A stretch of 64,000 bases of DNA from Afipia clevelandensis ATCC 49720. Lineage in GTDB: Bacteria; Pseudomonadota; Alphaproteobacteria; Rhizobiales; Xanthobacteraceae. Under the pieces are notes generated by a model that searched no databases, was not told the DNA's origin, and was given only the letters and a program-made list of their open reading frames with translations. Position numbers and translations under genes: made by a program. The stretch's first letter is position 1. Each line of letters begins with the position of its first letter. The stretch spans positions 2,050,030 through 2,114,029 of the forward strand of contig NZ_KB375281.1 of assembly GCF_000336555.1 (NCBI RefSeq). Reading direction: 5' to 3'. Positions 1 through 7,106 of this stretch are shown here, in pieces.

Positions 1-125
1 CCCTTGCGCGTCATCAGCGAACGGGCCGGACGCGCATCATCGGCGGACCGGTAGACCCGCGCATTACTGAATCGGATGGAGTCCGGGCTGTGCCGCATCG
101 CTCGTTCAGTCGGGCTAGATGAAAG

Positions 126-174: not shown

Positions 175-1347
175 TTACTTGACCAGGGCCCAATCAGGCT
201 GGGCCTCGAAGGTCTGAAGCTCCTTGTTGATGAGCTTACCGCCGTCCTTCGCAACCTCGCGCAGATAGACATTCTGCGTGATGTGGCGCGTCGTGGGGTC
301 AATCGAAACCGGGCCGCGCGGGCTGACCCACTTCATGCCCTTGACCGCGGCGACAGCTTTCTCCGGATCGCGCTGGCCCTTGGTGGCTTCGATCATCTTG
401 TAGATCACGCGCGCGCCGTCGTAGGCCGCGACCGATGTCATGGTCACGTTGTCGGCGCTGGTGCCGACCTTGGCGAGCCGCTCAAGGAATGCCTTGTTCT
501 CAGGCGACGCATGCGACACCGCATAGTGATAGGTCGAGAGAATGCCAAGGCCGTTGTCGCCGATGTTCGGCAGGTCGGGCTCGGTCACCACGTCGCCGGT
601 CGAGATAAGCTTGACACCCGACGCCTTCAGGCCGTTGTCGATATAGCCCTTCACAAAGCCGAGCGTCGGAGGACCGGCGGGCAGGAAGGTGAAGATGGTG
701 TCGGCGCCCGAACTCTTGATCCGCTGCATGATGGGGCTGAAATCGGTGGTGGCGATGGGCATGCGGATCGCTTCGACGATCGTGCCGCCTTCGGCCTCGA
801 AGGTCTTCTTGAACGCCGCTTCGGCGTCGATGCCGGGACCGTAGTCGGTCACGGCGATGGCGACCTTCTTGGCGCCCTTGGCTTTCGCGACCTTGGCGGC
901 CGGAACGGTGTTCTGCCACATCGTGAAGGAGGTGCGGACGATATAGGGGCTCTTCTCGACAATGGCCGAGGTCGCTGCGTTGAACACGATCATCGGCGTC
1001 TTGGCTTCTTCCAGCAGCGGTGCCACCGCCATGGCGTCCGGCGTGAAGTAAAGGCCGGCGATGTATTGCACCTTATCCTTGACGATCAGTTCCTGCGCCA
1101 AGGCCTTGGACTTCGCCGGGTTCGGCGATTCCTCGTCGCGATAGATGAATTCGACATCATGGCCGGCAACCTTGCTGCCATGTTCCGCCACCCAGGCGTC
1201 GATGCCTGCCTTGAAGTTCTGGCCGAACAGCGCGTATGGGCCGGACATGGTTCCGATCACGCCGACCTTGATGGTGTCGGCCTGCGCCAGACCGGACATC
1301 AATCCGGCGACCGACAGCGCGCATGCATATTTGAGTGCCTTGTTCAT
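175..1347 (-). CDS. ABC transporter substrate-binding protein, branched-chain amino acid/aromatic type (Peripla_BP_6)
   Basis: This is a 390-residue periplasmic binding protein of the LivK-like family, which delivers hydrophobic amino acids, amides or aromatic acids to an inner-membrane ABC importer. The first ~23 residues form a signal peptide (basic start, hydrophobic core, cleavage near AQA-DT). The mature start TIKVGVIGTMSGPYALFGQN is the typical opening of the fold. The ATG has a GGAG-containing ribosome binding site. It is the last gene of the minus-strand operon with the Rieske oxygenase and glutamine-synthetase-like genes, so its ligand is probably their substrate (inference). No permease or ATPase partner is present in the window, which makes it an orphan here. 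Confidence 0.88.
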   Translation of the reverse strand: MNKALKYACALSVAGLMSGLAQADTIKVGVIGTMSGPYALFGQNFKAGIDAWVAEHGSKVAGHDVEFIYRDEESPNPAKSKALAQELIVKDKVQYIAGLYFTPDAMAVAPLLEEAKTPMIVFNAATSAIVEKSPYIVRTSFTMWQNTVPAAKVAKAKGAKKVAIAVTDYGPGIDAEAAFKKTFEAEGGTIVEAIRMPIATTDFSPIMQRIKSSGADTIFTFLPAGPPTLGFVKGYIDNGLKASGVKLISTGDVVTEPDLPNIGDNGLGILSTYHYAVSHASPENKAFLERLAKVGTSADNVTMTSVAAYDGARVIYKMIEATKGQRDPEKAVAAVKGMKWVSPRGPVSIDPTTRHITQNVYLREVAKDGGKLINKELQTFEAQPDWALVK

Positions 1348-1400
1348 ATTGATCCCCTGCTCCTGTTATTTTGCTTTGTTGTATCATCCACCGCGTGCGG

Positions 1401-2858
1401 TCAGAACATCTCGAAATACTCGCGCTGCTCCCATTCGGTGACTTCTGCCTGAAAGCGCTCGATCTCGGCGTTCTTGATATGCACGTAGTAGTCCACCAGT
1501 TCGGCACCCATTGCGTTGCGGAAGAACGGATCGTCGTGCAGCGCAAAAACAGCTTCACGCAGCGACTTCGGCAACAGGCTCGCCTTGGCCTCGTAAGGTG
1601 TATCGGCTGACGGGCCGGGGTCAATGGCGCGGTCCACGCCGTCGAGTCCGGACAGGATTTGCGACGACATATAAAGGTAAGGATTAGCCGCAGGCTCGCC
1701 GACACGGTTCTCAAACCGTGTGGCGGGGTCCTTCGGGCCGCCCAGCACGCGGATCATGACACCCCGGTTGTCGCGGCCCCAGATCGCGCGGTCTGGCGCC
1801 AGCGAATAGGAGCGGTAGCGCTTGTAGCCGTTGATGGTCGGCGTTGTGAATACGGTGGCCGCGCGGGCATGGTCCAGCAGGCCGCCGAGATAGCCCTTGC
1901 CGAACGCCGAGAGGAATTCACCGTCGCTGTCGGACATGAAGGCATTGCGGCCATCGGCCTTCGACACCAGCGACTGATGCAAATGCCAGCCGGACGAGAC
2001 CACATTGGGAATACGCGGGCGGCACATGAAGGTGGCGTGATAGCCGTGGCGATGGCAAATCTGCTTCACGGCGCTGCGGAACAGCACCATGGTATCGGCA
2101 GGATCGAGACCGACCGCGGGCGCGAAGGTGAACTCGCACTGGCTCGGGCCGAACTCAACTTCGATGGACCGCAACGGCAGGCCGAGCGCGACCACATCGC
2201 GCCGGATCAGTTCCAGCACCGGCTCCATCTGGTCGTAGCGCTGTTCGGTCAGATACTGATAGCCGTGCGACAGCAGGCTGACATCGGGCGGCTCGCCAGG
2301 CTGGCCCGCATGCGCCGGCTGCATCTTCGGGTCGTTGACCTTGAAGACATGAAACTCGACTTCAAGACCCGCCTTGAAGTCGTAGCCACGCGCGGACAAC
2401 TTGCTCAAAACAGACTTATAGAGACCGCGCGTCGCGAACGGCACCGGACGGCCATCGGCGAAATGCACGTCGCAGAGCACCCAGCCCGTGGTCGGCGCCC
2501 ACGGCAGCACGCGAAAAGTCATCGGATCGGGAATCATCAGGACGTCGGCCGCGCCCTGCATCTCCGCCATCCCGAAACCGCCGCCCGCGGTGAACACCGG
2601 AAACACCGTGCGGTGCGAAGTGTCCTTCGCGAGCATCGTGGTGGTGATGGTGCAGCCGTTCTCGAGAATGCGCAGCGCTTCTTCGGCAACCAGCGTCTTG
2701 CCGCGCAGGATCCCATGCTGATCCGGGAACGAGAAGCGGATGGTCTGCAGCCCCTGCTCCTCGGCAATGCGCCGGAGCCGGACTGCCGCCTCGTTCTGCT
2801 CCTCCGACCAGAGGCGATGCCGCGCGACAAAACTCAACGAACTTGCTTTCCCTGACAT
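1401..2858 (-). CDS. Glutamine synthetase family protein (gamma-glutamylamide ligase type)
   Basis: This 485-residue protein has the glutamine synthetase catalytic domain. Visible motifs are GLEVEFHVF (metal-binding Glu, near 165-173), SSGWHLHQSL (the GSGxHxHQS equivalent), NGYKRYRSYSLAP and the RVGEPAANPYLY block. Divergent members of this family do not assimilate ammonia; they join glutamate to an amine, as PuuA does with putrescine and the aniline-pathway ligases with aniline. It starts 15 bp after the Rieske oxygenase stop codon, so the two are almost certainly co-transcribed. A role in gamma-glutamylating an amine substrate or intermediate is inferred from that context. Length and motifs show no sign of decay. 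Housekeeping GlnA is very unlikely. Confidence 0.85.
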   Translation of the reverse strand: MSGKASSLSFVARHRLWSEEQNEAAVRLRRIAEEQGLQTIRFSFPDQHGILRGKTLVAEEALRILENGCTITTTMLAKDTSHRTVFPVFTAGGGFGMAEMQGAADVLMIPDPMTFRVLPWAPTTGWVLCDVHFADGRPVPFATRGLYKSVLSKLSARGYDFKAGLEVEFHVFKVNDPKMQPAHAGQPGEPPDVSLLSHGYQYLTEQRYDQMEPVLELIRRDVVALGLPLRSIEVEFGPSQCEFTFAPAVGLDPADTMVLFRSAVKQICHRHGYHATFMCRPRIPNVVSSGWHLHQSLVSKADGRNAFMSDSDGEFLSAFGKGYLGGLLDHARAATVFTTPTINGYKRYRSYSLAPDRAIWGRDNRGVMIRVLGGPKDPATRFENRVGEPAANPYLYMSSQILSGLDGVDRAIDPGPSADTPYEAKASLLPKSLREAVFALHDDPFFRNAMGAELVDYYVHIKNAEIERFQAEVTEWEQREYFEMF

Positions 2859-2873
2859 GAGTTCGATCAGGCC

Positions 2874-4232
2874 TTATTCGGCTGCGGTGAGATGCGGCAC
2901 CTTCTCCGCAATCTCCGCAGGCACCGGCGCAGCCCAGGGCGCACCGCGCCGCCGCTTCACGTCGACTTCCATCCAGTAAATTTCCCAGCCGCGCGTCGGG
3001 CCGATGCCGTCCATCGTGGCCGGTCCCTGAATCGCACGTGCATTGGCTTCGTCAAGGAACAGCAGCGGCCTGGTGCCGCCCACCGCCTTCTCGATTTCCT
3101 GACGCAGCAGGCGGCGATACTGCACGATTGCCTTGTCGGACTGGCCGAGATGTTCACGGGTGCGATCCTGAATCGCGCCCATGGATTCCACAGCCCACTG
3201 ATCGTGCACGTTGATGTCGAGGCCCATGCCCGTATAGGTCTCGGTGGCCTGCTCATGCGGATCGAAACCGTAGTCGTTGGTCTTGTTCTTGCGCGAGACG
3301 TAGTCCGGCAGTTCGTAGAGTTCGAGGCGCTGTTCGCGCATCTTCTTCTTGTCCACCGGCGTCGAGTAGCTGGTGAAGATCGCATACCAGTAGCAATGGG
3401 TATCATCGACCGGCACATGCCACTGCGTGATGGTCATTTCCTGACTCATCGGAATGACGAAGCCATGCGGGAACAATTGATTGGTGACGCGGACGTGCGT
3501 GCGCTCGTCGTCGATCTGGCGCAGCGCGACCAGGCGAAGTCCGTACTCGGTCTTCTCGACATTGATGATCGGGCGGTCGTATTCGCGCAAAATCTTGGTC
3601 ATCGGCAAATCGGTGCCCGCGGAGGCGCCGCGGAACTGCTTGCCGTAGGATTTTTCCAGATCCTCATCCTCGAAGAAGCGATGCAGGAACGAGGCGTGCG
3701 CCGGATCAATGCCGACCTCCAGCGCCTGCAGCCAGTTGCATTCGATCAGGCCCTTGAATGCGAACGTATAGGCATCGGGCGCAACGAAGCAGTCGATCTC
3801 TGGAAACGCCGGCGGTTCGCCTTCGCCGAGATAGGCCCAGAGGATGCCGCCCTTCTCGACGACAGGATAAGCGCGCTGCTTGATGTTTTTGCAGAGCACC
3901 GAGCCGACCGGCTCCGCCGGCGTCTCAAGGCAATTGCCCTGAACATCGAACAGCCAGCCATGGAAGGCGCAGCGCAGGCCGCCATTTTCAAGACGGCCGA
4001 AAGCGAGATCCGCCCCGCGATGCGGGCAATCGCGATCCATCAGGCCATAGCGGCCCTGCTCGTCGCGGAACAGAACGAAGTTTTCGCCAAGCAACCGCAC
4101 AGCCCTGACCGGGCGCGGGCCTTCGAGTTCATCGACCAGAGCTGCTGGCTGCCAATACATCCGCATCAGCTTGCCGCAAGGATCGGCGCGCCCGGTGCGG
4201 GTGATCAGATCGTTCTGCTCCTGGCTCATCAT
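2874..4232 (-). CDS. Rieske non-heme iron oxygenase, alpha subunit (phthalate-dioxygenase-like)
   Basis: This is the terminal oxygenase component that hydroxylates or demethylates aromatic or amine substrates using electrons from a reductase. The Rieske [2Fe-2S] ligands are plain: C69-P-H71 and C88-x2-H91. The mononuclear iron motif DPAHASFLH (Asp and two His) lies near residue 200. The N-terminus (LITRTGRADPCGKLMRMYWQ) resembles phthalate 4,5-dioxygenase relatives, which are homo-oligomers without a beta subunit, and none is encoded nearby. I chose the ATG at 4232, which follows GGAAGGA; an upstream extension to 4340 lacks a binding site. It is the first gene of the operon with the GS-like ligase and binding protein. 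The substrate is unknown. Confidence 0.88.
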   Translation of the reverse strand: MMSQEQNDLITRTGRADPCGKLMRMYWQPAALVDELEGPRPVRAVRLLGENFVLFRDEQGRYGLMDRDCPHRGADLAFGRLENGGLRCAFHGWLFDVQGNCLETPAEPVGSVLCKNIKQRAYPVVEKGGILWAYLGEGEPPAFPEIDCFVAPDAYTFAFKGLIECNWLQALEVGIDPAHASFLHRFFEDEDLEKSYGKQFRGASAGTDLPMTKILREYDRPIINVEKTEYGLRLVALRQIDDERTHVRVTNQLFPHGFVIPMSQEMTITQWHVPVDDTHCYWYAIFTSYSTPVDKKKMREQRLELYELPDYVSRKNKTNDYGFDPHEQATETYTGMGLDINVHDQWAVESMGAIQDRTREHLGQSDKAIVQYRRLLRQEIEKAVGGTRPLLFLDEANARAIQGPATMDGIGPTRGWEIYWMEVDVKRRRGAPWAAPVPAEIAEKVPHLTAAE

Positions 4233-4432
4233 GGCTGTGTCGTCCTTCCGCTCCCGAGAGGGTTGTTTCCGGACGCCGATGACGCAGTCATGCAACGCTC
4301 CGGTCCGCCGACATGCTTCGGCGATTGAAAACCTTTCCACGACATCGCGCGAGGGTTTGCGGGTGTAAATCCGCTGCCAACGGCGATTTCTTTCGTCGCA
4401 CTCTCGTGTCGTCGCATCGTGGATTGAAGAAA

Positions 4433-4447
4433 GTTCGATGAACGAAC
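4433..4447. promoter_or_regulatory. Candidate IclR-type operator 1
   Basis: GTTCGATGAACGAAC is a 15-bp site with perfect 5-bp arms (GTTCG/CGAAC). It resembles the 15-mer I recall for the IclR-family regulator PcaR (GTTCGATAATCGCAC). It lies about 200 bp upstream of the oxygenase start codon. Confidence 0.5.
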
Positions 4448-4585
4448 ATTTGTGCGTTATTTATTAGACTGCCTCCAAAGTGAGGATCACACAAGCTCGT
4501 TCTTGCGACTTTGCTTGCCTATTTGTGCTGCAGCCGCGAAATTCGTTCGTCGGCTGTGTCAGCACAGTTCAGACAGGATTGAAAC

Positions 4586-4600
4586 GTTCGATCATCGCCC
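4586..4600. promoter_or_regulatory. Candidate IclR-type operator 2
   Basis: GTTCGATCATCGCCC matches the recalled PcaR 15-mer at 13 of 15 positions. It lies 64 bp upstream of the reductase start codon and 4 bp before the third site. Confidence 0.5.
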
Positions 4601-4604
4601 GTAT

Positions 4605-4619
4605 GTTCGTCATATGAAC
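4605..4619. promoter_or_regulatory. Candidate IclR-type operator 3
   Basis: GTTCGTCATATGAAC is a 15-bp site with GTTC/GAAC arms, the same length and layout as the two upstream sites. It lies 45 bp before the reductase start, which suits repression or activation of that promoter. Confidence 0.45.
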
Positions 4620-4663
4620 CGCCGGACCAAATCCCCTGTTGCCCGTTTCCTGAAGGCAGAACC

Positions 4664-5905
4664 ATGAGCGGCCTCGTCATTATCGGCGCGTCGTATGCCG
4701 GTGTTCAGGCAGCGTTGAGCGCGCGCGATTCAGGATACGGCGAACGCATCACGGTGATCGCCGACGAGCACCTGCTGCCCTATCAGCGCCCGCCGCTGTC
4801 CAAGGATTTCCTGCTCGACAGGGTGACGCAGGACGGTCTGGTTCTGCGCGACAACGCCTTCTTCAAGCTCAAGCAGATCGACCTCATGCTCGAAACGCGC
4901 GTGCATGCGATCGACCGGCATGCGCGCAGGCTGTCGATCAATGGCGACAACACCACCCTCGCCTTCGACAAGCTGTTCATCGGCACCGGCTCGCATGCGC
5001 GCCGCCTGACCGTTCCGGGATCCGAACGCGACGGCGTGTGCTATCTGCGCTCGATCCGCGATGCGATCGCCCTGAAGCAGAGATTGCAGGACGCCGCCGA
5101 GATCGTCGTGATCGGCGGCGGCTTCATCGGGCTCGAGGTCGCAGCCTCCGCCAGCAAGCTCGGCAAGAAAGTCACGCTGATCGAAAGCGCCTCGCGCCTG
5201 CTGGAACGCGCGGTGTCGCCCCTCGTCTCGCAATTCCTGCTCGACCTGCATACACGCCACGGCGTCGATGTCCGGCTCAATGAATCGGTCTCTTCCATCG
5301 GCGGCAACGATGGCCGCGCCGCATTCGTCACCATTTCAAATGGCGCCAACGTACCAGCGGATCTCGTCCTTGTTGGAATTGGCGGCGTTCCTAGCGATCA
5401 GCTCGCGCGCGATGCGCAACTGACCTGTGGCAACGGAATCGTGGTGGACGATCACGGCATGACCAGTGATCCGGACATCTATGCGGCCGGCGACTGCGCC
5501 AATCACTACAATCCTCATGCCGGAGACTGGGTGCGGCTCGAATCCGTTCAGAACGCGCAGGATCAGGGCAAGGCGGCCGGGCTGGCGATTGCCGGAAAGA
5601 CCGGCCCCTACGTCAGCGTGCCGCGCTTCTGGTCGGACCAGTACGACGCCAAGTTGCAAACCGTCGGGATATCGCGCAATTTCGACCAGCAGGTCGTCCG
5701 CGGCTCGCTCGAAGATGGGCAGTTTTCGGTCTTCTACTACAGGCAGGGCAAGCTCTGCGCCGTGGACAGCATCAACCGCGCCGGGGACCAGATGGCGGCC
5801 CGCCGCCTGATTGACGGCGGCCTGTCGCCATCGCCCGAGCAGGCCGCCGACCTGTCCTTCGATTTCAAGTCGCTTTTGATCCCGATCAAAGCCGAAAGCC
5901 GATGA
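4664..5905 (+). CDS. NAD(P)/FAD-dependent ferredoxin reductase
   Basis: This 413-residue flavoprotein belongs to the family of reductases that pass NAD(P)H electrons through a ferredoxin to oxygenases (rhodocoxin, putidaredoxin and BphA4-type reductases). It shows an N-terminal FAD-binding motif (IIGASYAG), the YQRPPLSK segment typical of this family, a central NAD-binding motif (VVIGGGFIGLE, near 149) and the C-terminal FAD motif DIYAAGDCANH. It is divergent from the Rieske oxygenase and is its likely electron source (inference). No [2Fe-2S] ferredoxin gene is found in the window, so a carrier must come from elsewhere unless reduction is direct. The iclR gene follows 62 bp downstream in the same direction. 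Confidence 0.88.
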   Translation: MSGLVIIGASYAGVQAALSARDSGYGERITVIADEHLLPYQRPPLSKDFLLDRVTQDGLVLRDNAFFKLKQIDLMLETRVHAIDRHARRLSINGDNTTLAFDKLFIGTGSHARRLTVPGSERDGVCYLRSIRDAIALKQRLQDAAEIVVIGGGFIGLEVAASASKLGKKVTLIESASRLLERAVSPLVSQFLLDLHTRHGVDVRLNESVSSIGGNDGRAAFVTISNGANVPADLVLVGIGGVPSDQLARDAQLTCGNGIVVDDHGMTSDPDIYAAGDCANHYNPHAGDWVRLESVQNAQDQGKAAGLAIAGKTGPYVSVPRFWSDQYDAKLQTVGISRNFDQQVVRGSLEDGQFSVFYYRQGKLCAVDSINRAGDQMAARRLIDGGLSPSPEQAADLSFDFKSLLIPIKAESR

Positions 5906-5967: not shown

Positions 5968-6765
5968 ATGCCCCGTGTGAACCGCACTGCAGAGGAAGAA
6001 GAGGCCCGGCGCGAGGGCGGCGAATTCATCGAAAGCCTCGATCGGGGACTTCGCGTGCTGCAGTCATTCGGCACCGAGCACCGCCCGATGACCCTGAGCG
6101 ACATCGCCAAAGCATCGAACCTGTCGCGCGCGACCGCCCGCCGTATCCTCCTGACACTTCAGCGGGCAGGTTTCGTGGCGGGCGATGAGCGGCTGTTTTC
6201 GCTGACGCCGCGGGTGCTTGCGCTGGCTTCGGCCTACCTGTCGTCCAACCAGATCGTCGCCGTGATGCAGCCGCTGATGGACGACATCTCGACCAAGGCA
6301 CGAGAGGTCTGCTCGCTCGCCATTCTCGACGGCCATGAAGCGGTCTTCGTCGCGCGGGCAAGTCCGGCACGGGTATTTTCCGCAGGCATCGACATCGGAT
6401 ACCGGCTGCCCGCCTACTGCACCTCGGTCGGCCGCGTGCTGCTCGGCCGCCTGCCAAACGACGAACTGACATCGGCGATCGACGCGATGGCTGTCACGGC
6501 CCAGACGCCGGAAACGGTGACGGACAAATCCATCGTGACCGCGACAATCATCGCCGACCGGAACAAGGGCTACTCGCTGGTGGACCGCGAAGCCGAACCC
6601 GGCTTCCGCTCCATTTCGGTGCCGATCCGCCGCTATGACGGCGCTGTGGTCGCGGCGGCAAACATCGGCGCGCATGTGGATCGCATCACCACCGGCGAAA
6701 TGATCGACCGCTTCCTGCCGTTGCTCAACGACATGGCCAAGACCGCCAAGCCGCTGCTGGTTTAG
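5968..6765 (+). CDS. IclR family transcriptional regulator
   Basis: The protein has 265 residues with an N-terminal winged helix-turn-helix (about 20-80; LSDIAKASNLSRATARRILLTL is the DNA-binding segment) and a C-terminal IclR effector domain (about 95-260) with the conserved YCTSVGRVLL stretch. It resembles the PcaR/PcaU branch, which controls aromatic acid catabolism. It lies downstream of the ferredoxin reductase and probably binds the three GTTC palindromes between the divergent operons (inference). The ATG at 5968 has only a distant GGAAGGGA upstream, so the start is probable rather than certain. Its stop overlaps the stop of the convergent isomerase gene. Confidence 0.9.
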   Translation: MPRVNRTAEEEEARREGGEFIESLDRGLRVLQSFGTEHRPMTLSDIAKASNLSRATARRILLTLQRAGFVAGDERLFSLTPRVLALASAYLSSNQIVAVMQPLMDDISTKAREVCSLAILDGHEAVFVARASPARVFSAGIDIGYRLPAYCTSVGRVLLGRLPNDELTSAIDAMAVTAQTPETVTDKSIVTATIIADRNKGYSLVDREAEPGFRSISVPIRRYDGAVVAAANIGAHVDRITTGEMIDRFLPLLNDMAKTAKPLLV

Positions 6766-7106
6766 ATATCCAGCAGCCGTTTCTTGTAGGCCTGCGGGTC
6801 CATGTCGCGGATGTCGATGCTGATGCTGTGGACACTCGCCAGGATTCCCGCGAGCGTCTTTCGTAACTCGGTGCTGAGATGTTCCTTCTGCGCGGGTGTC
6901 CGTCCCGCCAGCAGATACAGCGCAACATGAAAGAACGAGCGCTGTTCGCCCGCCACGAGATAATCCGCGAACGGCAGCGCGCGAATTTTCAGGTCCTCGG
7001 CTTTCACAATACCGGTCGCGGCAGCCGCCTCATGAATCGCCCGCATGACATCCCGCATCGGCGGCATGTCCGGGGTCGCGGAATAATGGCAGACTATGTG
7101 CGGCAT
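6762..7106 (-). CDS. 5-carboxymethyl-2-hydroxymuconate isomerase-like protein
   Basis: This small protein of 114 residues belongs to the tautomerase superfamily branch of CHMI (HpaF/HpcD), which isomerises ring-cleavage products in homoprotocatechuate breakdown. After Met removal it begins PHIVCHYSA, giving the N-terminal proline that acts as catalytic base in this family. That fixes the start at the ATG at 7106 rather than the in-frame TTG just before it, and AGGATGA precedes it. Conserved features include the ADYLVAGE segment. It is convergent with iclR and 49 bp downstream of the metallo-hydrolase gene. Its natural substrate here is unproven; other homoprotocatechuate genes are not in the window. 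Confidence 0.82.
   Translation of the reverse strand: MPHIVCHYSATPDMPPMRDVMRAIHEAAAATGIVKAEDLKIRALPFADYLVAGEQRSFFHVALYLLAGRTPAQKEHLSTELRKTLAGILASVHSISIDIRDMDPQAYKKRLLDI

Follow-up and report, generated by a model that had tools for sequence, protein, structure and literature searches.

What compound is processed by an operon that places a Rieske oxygenase (RO) next to a ligase resembling glutamine synthetase (GS)? Such an operon is found at one end of a 64,000-nucleotide stretch of the Afipia clevelandensis ATCC 49720 genome (contig NZ_KB375281.1, positions 2,050,030 to 2,114,029), hereafter the window. The sequence-only reading of this DNA had proposed that an amine, either aryl or alkyl, is conjugated to glutamate before the RO acts. 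The core of this idea, Rieske oxidation of an amine coupled to gamma-glutamylation, is supported by the ligase subfamily, by residues of the active site and by the constancy of the RO-ligase pairing, but its details required correction. Instead of an open choice of amines, the pcaHG genes, a PcaR-type regulator, a Lys in the ligase and an Arg in the RO indicate an acidic aryl amine that gives protocatechuate; the pcaHG linkage and the pocket residues also disfavor an alkylamine. Oxidation of an acidic aryl amine by way of gamma-glutamylation appears highly likely, when 4-aminobenzoate is taken together with sulfanilate and the other aminoarene acids discussed below. The operon probably degrades 4-aminobenzoate itself, or else a ring amine much like it whose acid group lies opposite the nitrogen.

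The operon and its probable link to protocatechuate

All five genes named in the sequence-only reading are present as described, in agreement with Pfam and NCBIfam scans. The features of this part of the window are as follows:

1..98, minus strand: 5' end of an Amidohydro_3 gene, most of which lies beyond the window; start at 98 inferred by eye
175..1347, minus strand: periplasmic substrate-binding protein of a LIV-type ABC transporter (Pfam Peripla_BP_6, 241 bits), with livHMGF downstream
1401..2858, minus strand: GS-like ligase (GoaS type), predicted gamma-glutamyl-4-aminobenzoate synthetase (Gln-synt_C, 270 bits; 8wwu match)
2874..4232, minus strand: RO alpha subunit of the phthalate/isophthalate-dioxygenase type, predicted gamma-glutamyl-4-aminobenzoate 3,4-dioxygenase (Pfam Rieske, 65 bits, and LigXa_C)
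4233..4663, no strand: divergent promoter region, from which the ferredoxin gene kept here by relatives is gone (comparison with locus L009)
4664..5905, plus strand: ferredoxin reductase, probably serving the RO (Pyr_redox_2, 240 bits, and Reductase_C; 66.5% identical to the SA1 reductase)
5968..6765, plus strand: IclR-type regulator of the PcaR/PcaU/PobR subfamily (TIGR02431, 321 bits, cut-off 284.75)
6762..7106, minus strand: CHMI-like tautomerase, possible accessory enzyme (Pfam CHMI; no NCBIfam match)

The start of the RO gene was placed at the ATG at 4232, as in homologues, not at the GTG at 4340. The cluster is real, and the operon is larger than the view from the window shows. The operon of RO, ligase and binding protein described earlier is present but incomplete: in a 16-kb stretch that overlaps the window and extends it past base 1 (L005, genome C1:2036000-2052000), the minus-strand operon continues with the Amidohydro_3 gene (L005:12497-14332, Pfam 268 bits), livH, livM, livG, livF, pcaH and pcaG. 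Both subunits encoded by the last two genes exceed the curated NCBIfam cut-offs for protocatechuate 3,4-dioxygenase (pcaH, L005 8431-9138, TIGR02422, 375 bits vs cut-off 296; pcaG, L005 7844-8491, TIGR02423, 261 bits vs cut-off 126). Beyond pcaG come genes for an AraC-type regulator and a TonB receptor. The reported absence of an amidotransferase, an RO beta subunit and a ferredoxin was borne out: none of the tested kinds was detected by tblastn (E <= 1e-3) in the 64-kb window or in L005. The queries included three beta subunits and four amidotransferases, and for these two the control locus L110 was matched as a positive control.

No pcaH besides the operon copy was found when the whole genome was searched, the second, weaker row being pcaG. 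Near 1.67 Mb the genome has pcaB, which passes its cut-off, together with a pcaC-like gene that does not. Among 28 relatives of the same genus, eight carry the RO, and seven of the eight stretches continue into pcaH; the eighth (L236) ends just past livF. At locus L157, the RO, GS-like, pcaH and pcaG genes stand directly in line and are followed by pcaB- and pcaC-like genes. Other linkages of pcaHG to the RO-ligase pair were found at L165, at a distance of about 7 kb, and on a Palleronia plasmid. A PcaH-like match at L161 (33%) was rejected as a linkage because the pcaH of that genome lies on another contig. In a sample of 385 genomes of the class, pcaH (E <= 1e-60) was detected in 21 of the 30 genomes with the RO (20 of 29 without A. 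clevelandensis itself) vs 57 of the 355 others (Fisher p 8e-10 with the two lists matched by hand, uncorrected for genome size and kinship). Of the 20 other genomes with both RO and pcaH, two have pcaH in reach (p 0.004 at an assumed chance of 0.005 per genome).

Ligase, oxygenase and their pairing

Gene order, family assignments, conserved residues, the pairing and the pcaHG linkage are all read directly from sequence. The best solved relative of the ligase is 8wwu (473 bits; next chain 199). According to passages of PMC11335346, 8WWU is NpaA1, which glutamylates 1-naphthylamine and belongs to a class named GoaS; its residues E232 and E234 hold the amino group, and a loop, V68'-M81', that includes F75' stabilizes the ring. 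The window ligase shares 51% identity with the one encoded in the Delftia pLME1 cluster. The sequence-only reading had named a grouping with true GlnA as evidence against itself; such a grouping was not found, the identity being 45% to NpaA1 vs 29% to the genome's own GlnA, and by identity the ligase lies nearer to GoaS enzymes (AtdA1, NpaA1, TdnQ) than to GlnA. In a tree, the genome's own GlnA sits on a very long branch, and the deep forks are not resolved.

The extra N-terminal loop (V68-M81 of NpaA1) is present in the window ligase. To compare residues, we used 117 loci, mostly of close relatives, at which RO and ligase were each matched over at least three quarters of their length (a ligase search supplied 78, the class sample 26 and plasmids 13). 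The Glu pair that holds the amino group, E232 and E234, is conserved in 117/117 of these RO-paired ligases, F75' of NpaA1 is replaced by Lys (K78 in the window) in 117/117, and the S80 position is Arg or Lys in 114/117. Lys is also present in L031 and L038, ligases for which the contig start truncates the RO, and in a further 22/22 ligase reads down to 42% identity, at least two of which come from genomes already counted. All five ligases from loci without an RO match (L109, L110, L111, L113, L114) have Phe at this position. A positive side chain in place of the ring-stacking Phe would fit an acid group on the substrate.

The description of the RO as a phthalate-like, single-subunit enzyme held: its best solved relatives are phthalate dioxygenase (PDO) and isophthalate dioxygenase (IPDO) structures (7fhr, 9ina, 7fjl; E 1e-63 to 1e-65), and tblastn detected no beta subunit in the window or L005. 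In passages of PMC12445078, PDO R244 and IPDO R234 are described as equivalent and as binding a ring carboxylate. In IPDO, R234 forms a salt bridge with the C1 carboxylate, with C3/C4 turned toward the iron; all activity is lost in variants at R234 (including R234A) and H257. In alignments read by eye, R249 of the window RO (numbered from base 4235; R248 from the ATG) matches PDO R244 and IPDO R234, and the H257 position is occupied by Gln, so that the RO retains the first of these IPDO anchors but not the second. This carboxylate Arg is present in 120 of 120 RO rows, the window included. Given the kept Arg, a ring with nitrogen at C4 would have C3/C4 at the iron and would yield protocatechuate after the nitrogen side chain leaves as glutamine.

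The pairing of the two genes was followed from both sides. Among the best 80 of 572 ligase relatives, to which all counts out of 80 refer, the RO lies within 300 bases of the ligase in 80/80. The sequence-only reading had held that freely varying neighbors would speak against it. The RO-ligase core is fixed and the IclR gene common (73/80), whereas the binding protein (21/80) and the reductase (11/80) vary; thus, the three-gene neighborhood that it had named is not itself conserved. The tautomerase is present at 13 of the 80 loci.

Searches with the RO alone were made to avoid selection by the ligase. In the class sample, 28 of the 30 RO-carrying genomes also have the ligase. Without A. clevelandensis, the pair is found in 27/29 (26 within 300 bases, and 1,405 bases apart at L159); the exceptions are L160, with no ligase in the fetched stretch, and L175, where the contig ends soon after the RO. 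In the phylum sample (RO in 21/398), the ligase was found in 13/13 loci examined; these were 13 of the 20 others, four of them in common with the class sample, with seven matches of genus g2 left out. Among sampled relatives (RO in 15/61), 13 of the 14 others have the ligase, and L237 has none. Plasmids contributed 13 loci with both genes, adjacent in 10. In the class and phylum samples, the RO matches of L128, L135, L144, L148, L150 (two) and L206-L208 contain in-frame stops and represent decayed copies or matches that run beyond the gene end.

Proposed pathway, precedents and rival substrates

From these observations, we infer the substrate, the chemistry, the electron path and the roles of the transporter, tautomerase and amidohydrolase. 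In the proposed pathway, the LIV-type ABC transporter would import 4-aminobenzoate, and the GS-like ligase would use ATP to couple it to glutamate, yielding gamma-glutamyl-4-aminobenzoate. The RO, receiving electrons from the neighboring reductase via a ferredoxin encoded elsewhere in the genome, would grip the ring carboxylate with R249 and add O2 across C3 and C4. Collapse of the resulting hemiaminal at C4 would release glutamine; tautomerization, perhaps catalyzed by the CHMI-like protein, would leave protocatechuate. PcaHG, encoded at the operon's end, would then cleave the ring, the beta-ketoadipate pathway would complete the breakdown, and the PcaR/PobR-type regulator would sense the substrate or the product.

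On gene content and description, the closest precedent is the sad operon of Hydrogenophaga intermedia PBC, whose oxygenase SadA we take to be of the Rieske type. As described in passages of PMC5632844, citing Gan et al. 2012, this operon encodes a 4-aminobenzenesulfonate 3,4-dioxygenase system in which SadA, the glutamine-synthetase-like SadB and the ferredoxin SadC turn a para-acidic aniline into a catechol. The accessions given there for SadA and SadB are WP_009515254 and WP_009515256. The RO adjoins the GS-like gene in the window as in this arrangement, and the full sad-like order of RO, ligase and ferredoxin recurs at L090-L092 and L243-L245. Unlike the sad operon, the window cluster has no ferredoxin (in 4233-4663, the rest of the window or L005), includes the LIV transporter and pcaHG in the operon, has a divergent reductase gene, and its substrate is predicted to carry a carboxylate as the acid group.

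The likeness to aniline pathways put forward earlier is sound as to the ligase, although the sad operon is the closer match. In the aniline and 1-naphthylamine clusters (atdA1-A5, npaA1-A5, tdn, dca), a GoaS-type ligase makes the gamma-glutamyl arylamide for a Rieske dioxygenase, according to passages of PMC11335346. These clusters encode alpha and beta oxygenase subunits and an amidotransferase (the Delftia pLME1 cluster, for example, consists of ligase, amidotransferase, alpha and beta), whereas tblastn detected neither beta subunit nor amidotransferase in the window or L005; NpaA1 and the Delftia ligase also carry Phe where the window group has Lys. PDO and IPDO of Comamonas testosteroni KF1 share the oxygenase family and the carboxylate-binding Arg with the window RO, but their substrates carry two ring carboxylates, and H257 of IPDO is Gln here. 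To our knowledge, no GS-like partner of PDO or IPDO has been described.

The ligase Lys and the RO Arg indicate an acid group, not its exact position. Another aminoarene acid, such as 3-aminobenzoate, an aminosalicylate, a folate fragment or a similar compound, could thus be converted to protocatechuate or a close catechol acid; 3,4-attack on 3-aminobenzoate would likewise yield protocatechuate. We consider such a substrate unlikely: the sad parallel is para, and no fitting compound is commoner in nature than 4-aminobenzoate.

Somewhat less probable again is that the substrate is 4-aminobenzenesulfonate (sulfanilate), converted to 4-sulfocatechol as in the sad operon, with 4-aminobenzoate at most a side substrate. 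The sad operon is the closest system in print, and the reference list of PMC5632844 includes a sulfanilate-degrading Bradyrhizobium. Novosphingobium resinovorum SA1, which degrades sulfanilate according to passages of PMC6167471, encodes an RO 81% and a ligase 75% identical to those of the window (reductase, 66.5%; CHMI-like protein, 63%), about 2 kb from a gene annotated as maleylacetate reductase; hence, the same pair may serve a sulfonate. The literature searched yielded nothing on whether SA1 uses the pair for sulfanilate or for 4-aminobenzoate. Against sulfanilate, the operon's pcaHG score above the protocatechuate 3,4-dioxygenase cut-offs of NCBIfam, although enzymes of the sulfocatechol type might do so as well; for PcaHG of the 4-sulfocatechol type, PMC5632844 cites residues reported by Contzen 2001.

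Beyond the SA1 case, a number of findings count against 4-aminobenzoate degradation by the RO-ligase pair. The genome also has pobA, near 3.66 Mb, so pcaHG need not be tied to the substrate of the operon. Nine of the 30 RO genomes lack pcaH at E <= 1e-60, and pcaHG are in reach at only 2/80 loci, both from Afipia. The box (benzoyl-CoA) genes, which signal an aromatic acid and not protocatechuate, flank 53/80 loci (51 among the 58 with Bradyrhizobium in the title, 2 among the remaining 22). The RO occurs without the ligase at L160 (64% identical) and L237 (68%), with 19 kb fetched, and the two genes are on opposite strands at plasmid loci L093 and L112 and 6 kb apart at L094. RO and ligase lineages are not always shared: in Nitratireductor sp. 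OM-1 (L093), the RO is 87% and the ligase 52% identical to those of the window, an apparent exchange of partners between lineages. The ligase of Streptomyces locus L116 has the Lys, yet no RO in its annotated neighborhood. Finally, the ligases of RO loci do not form one clade; the tree requires three changes, and one change suffices in 4% of 200 bootstrap trees.

Several of these findings (unpaired ROs, opposite strands, box genes beside the pair) would also be expected if a plain aromatic acid were the substrate of the RO and the ligase handled an unrelated amine or polyamine, the two sharing only their regulation. This appears quite improbable in view of the consistent pairing in each search (80/80, 27/29, 13/13 and 13/14) and of a ligase pocket that aligns with arylamine ligases. 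The GS-like protein is very unlikely to be a conventional glutamine synthetase serving ammonia assimilation, and this reading was rejected: its catalytic domain aligns with GlnA, but it is only 29% identical to the genome's own GlnA, has a long loop where GlnA has a short ammonium-side segment, and scores 218 bits against the NCBIfam GlnA cut-off of 429, and two other GS genes, read as GlnA and GlnII, are present elsewhere in the genome.

A broader interpretation can be offered tentatively, as falling a little short of an even chance. The operon may represent the way in which Alphaproteobacteria and other Proteobacteria naturally and widely break down 4-aminobenzoate (PABA, the ring piece of folate) in the presence of oxygen, a route in which the ligase Phe has given way to a carboxylate-binding Lys, the Arg anchor of an isophthalate-type RO sets the 3,4-attack, and a tautomerase rearomatizes the ring as glutamine leaves; the sad sulfanilate pathway would then be a recruited copy. 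Given the RO in 30 of the 385 class genomes, 28 of them with the ligase, such a route would be common. Among the open-licence papers listed by the literature searches, none was found that assigns such genes to aerobic 4-aminobenzoate breakdown. This interpretation, if true, hints at the origin of a xenobiotic pathway, that of sulfanilate, and ligase K78 and RO R249 would be two residues bearing on the discrimination of acid-bearing from plain anilines.

Electron supply and accessory genes

The sequence-only reading had counted the lack of a ferredoxin among the differences from the known aniline system. The gene is indeed absent; it was most likely lost secondarily in the clade of the window, as judged from comparison with relatives. 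In Afipia sp. OHSU_II-C1 (L009), a 107-residue 2Fe-2S ferredoxin, 56% identical to the SA1 ferredoxin, is encoded at 7190-6870, ending where the reductase begins. Six of the eight RO carriers of the same genus (L231-L236, L231 being the L009 genome) keep the gene, hence our reading of its absence as a loss; it is missing from the window and from L229 and L230, whose ROs are the closest to that of the window (99%). The DNA flanks of L009 align to the window across the gap, and the ferredoxin gene does not. A ferredoxin remnant in 4233-4663 was sought and rejected (best tblastn match E 1.6, with the flanks aligning). A ferredoxin encoded elsewhere in the genome (C1:1856263-1856508), 46% identical to a Caballeronia ferredoxin, could replace the lost one; the open reading frames around it are uninformative. 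In the Rhodobacterales versions (L112, L094), a small Rieske protein is encoded separately, upstream of the RO, and a flavodoxin-like gene is also present, which may point to another electron chain.

The CHMI-like tautomerase, which may speed rearomatization, immediately follows the ligase in SA1, Palleronia, Pseudooceanicola, L163, L240 and L248, and Pro is found next to the start in 27/27 rows, with two genomes counted twice. In SA1, a glutaminase gene lies about 6 kb from the ligase, which would fit the release of glutamine. The SA1 plasmid (L088) also carries folP (4346-5176), encoding dihydropteroate synthase, a 4-aminobenzoate-using enzyme, about 8 kb from the RO-ligase pair. Other genes near the pair encode nitroreductase-family proteins (L089, L090, L091, L118, L120) and DUF4863 proteins (L089, L090, L117, L118, L120, L152), which perhaps link the pair to nitrobenzoate reduction.

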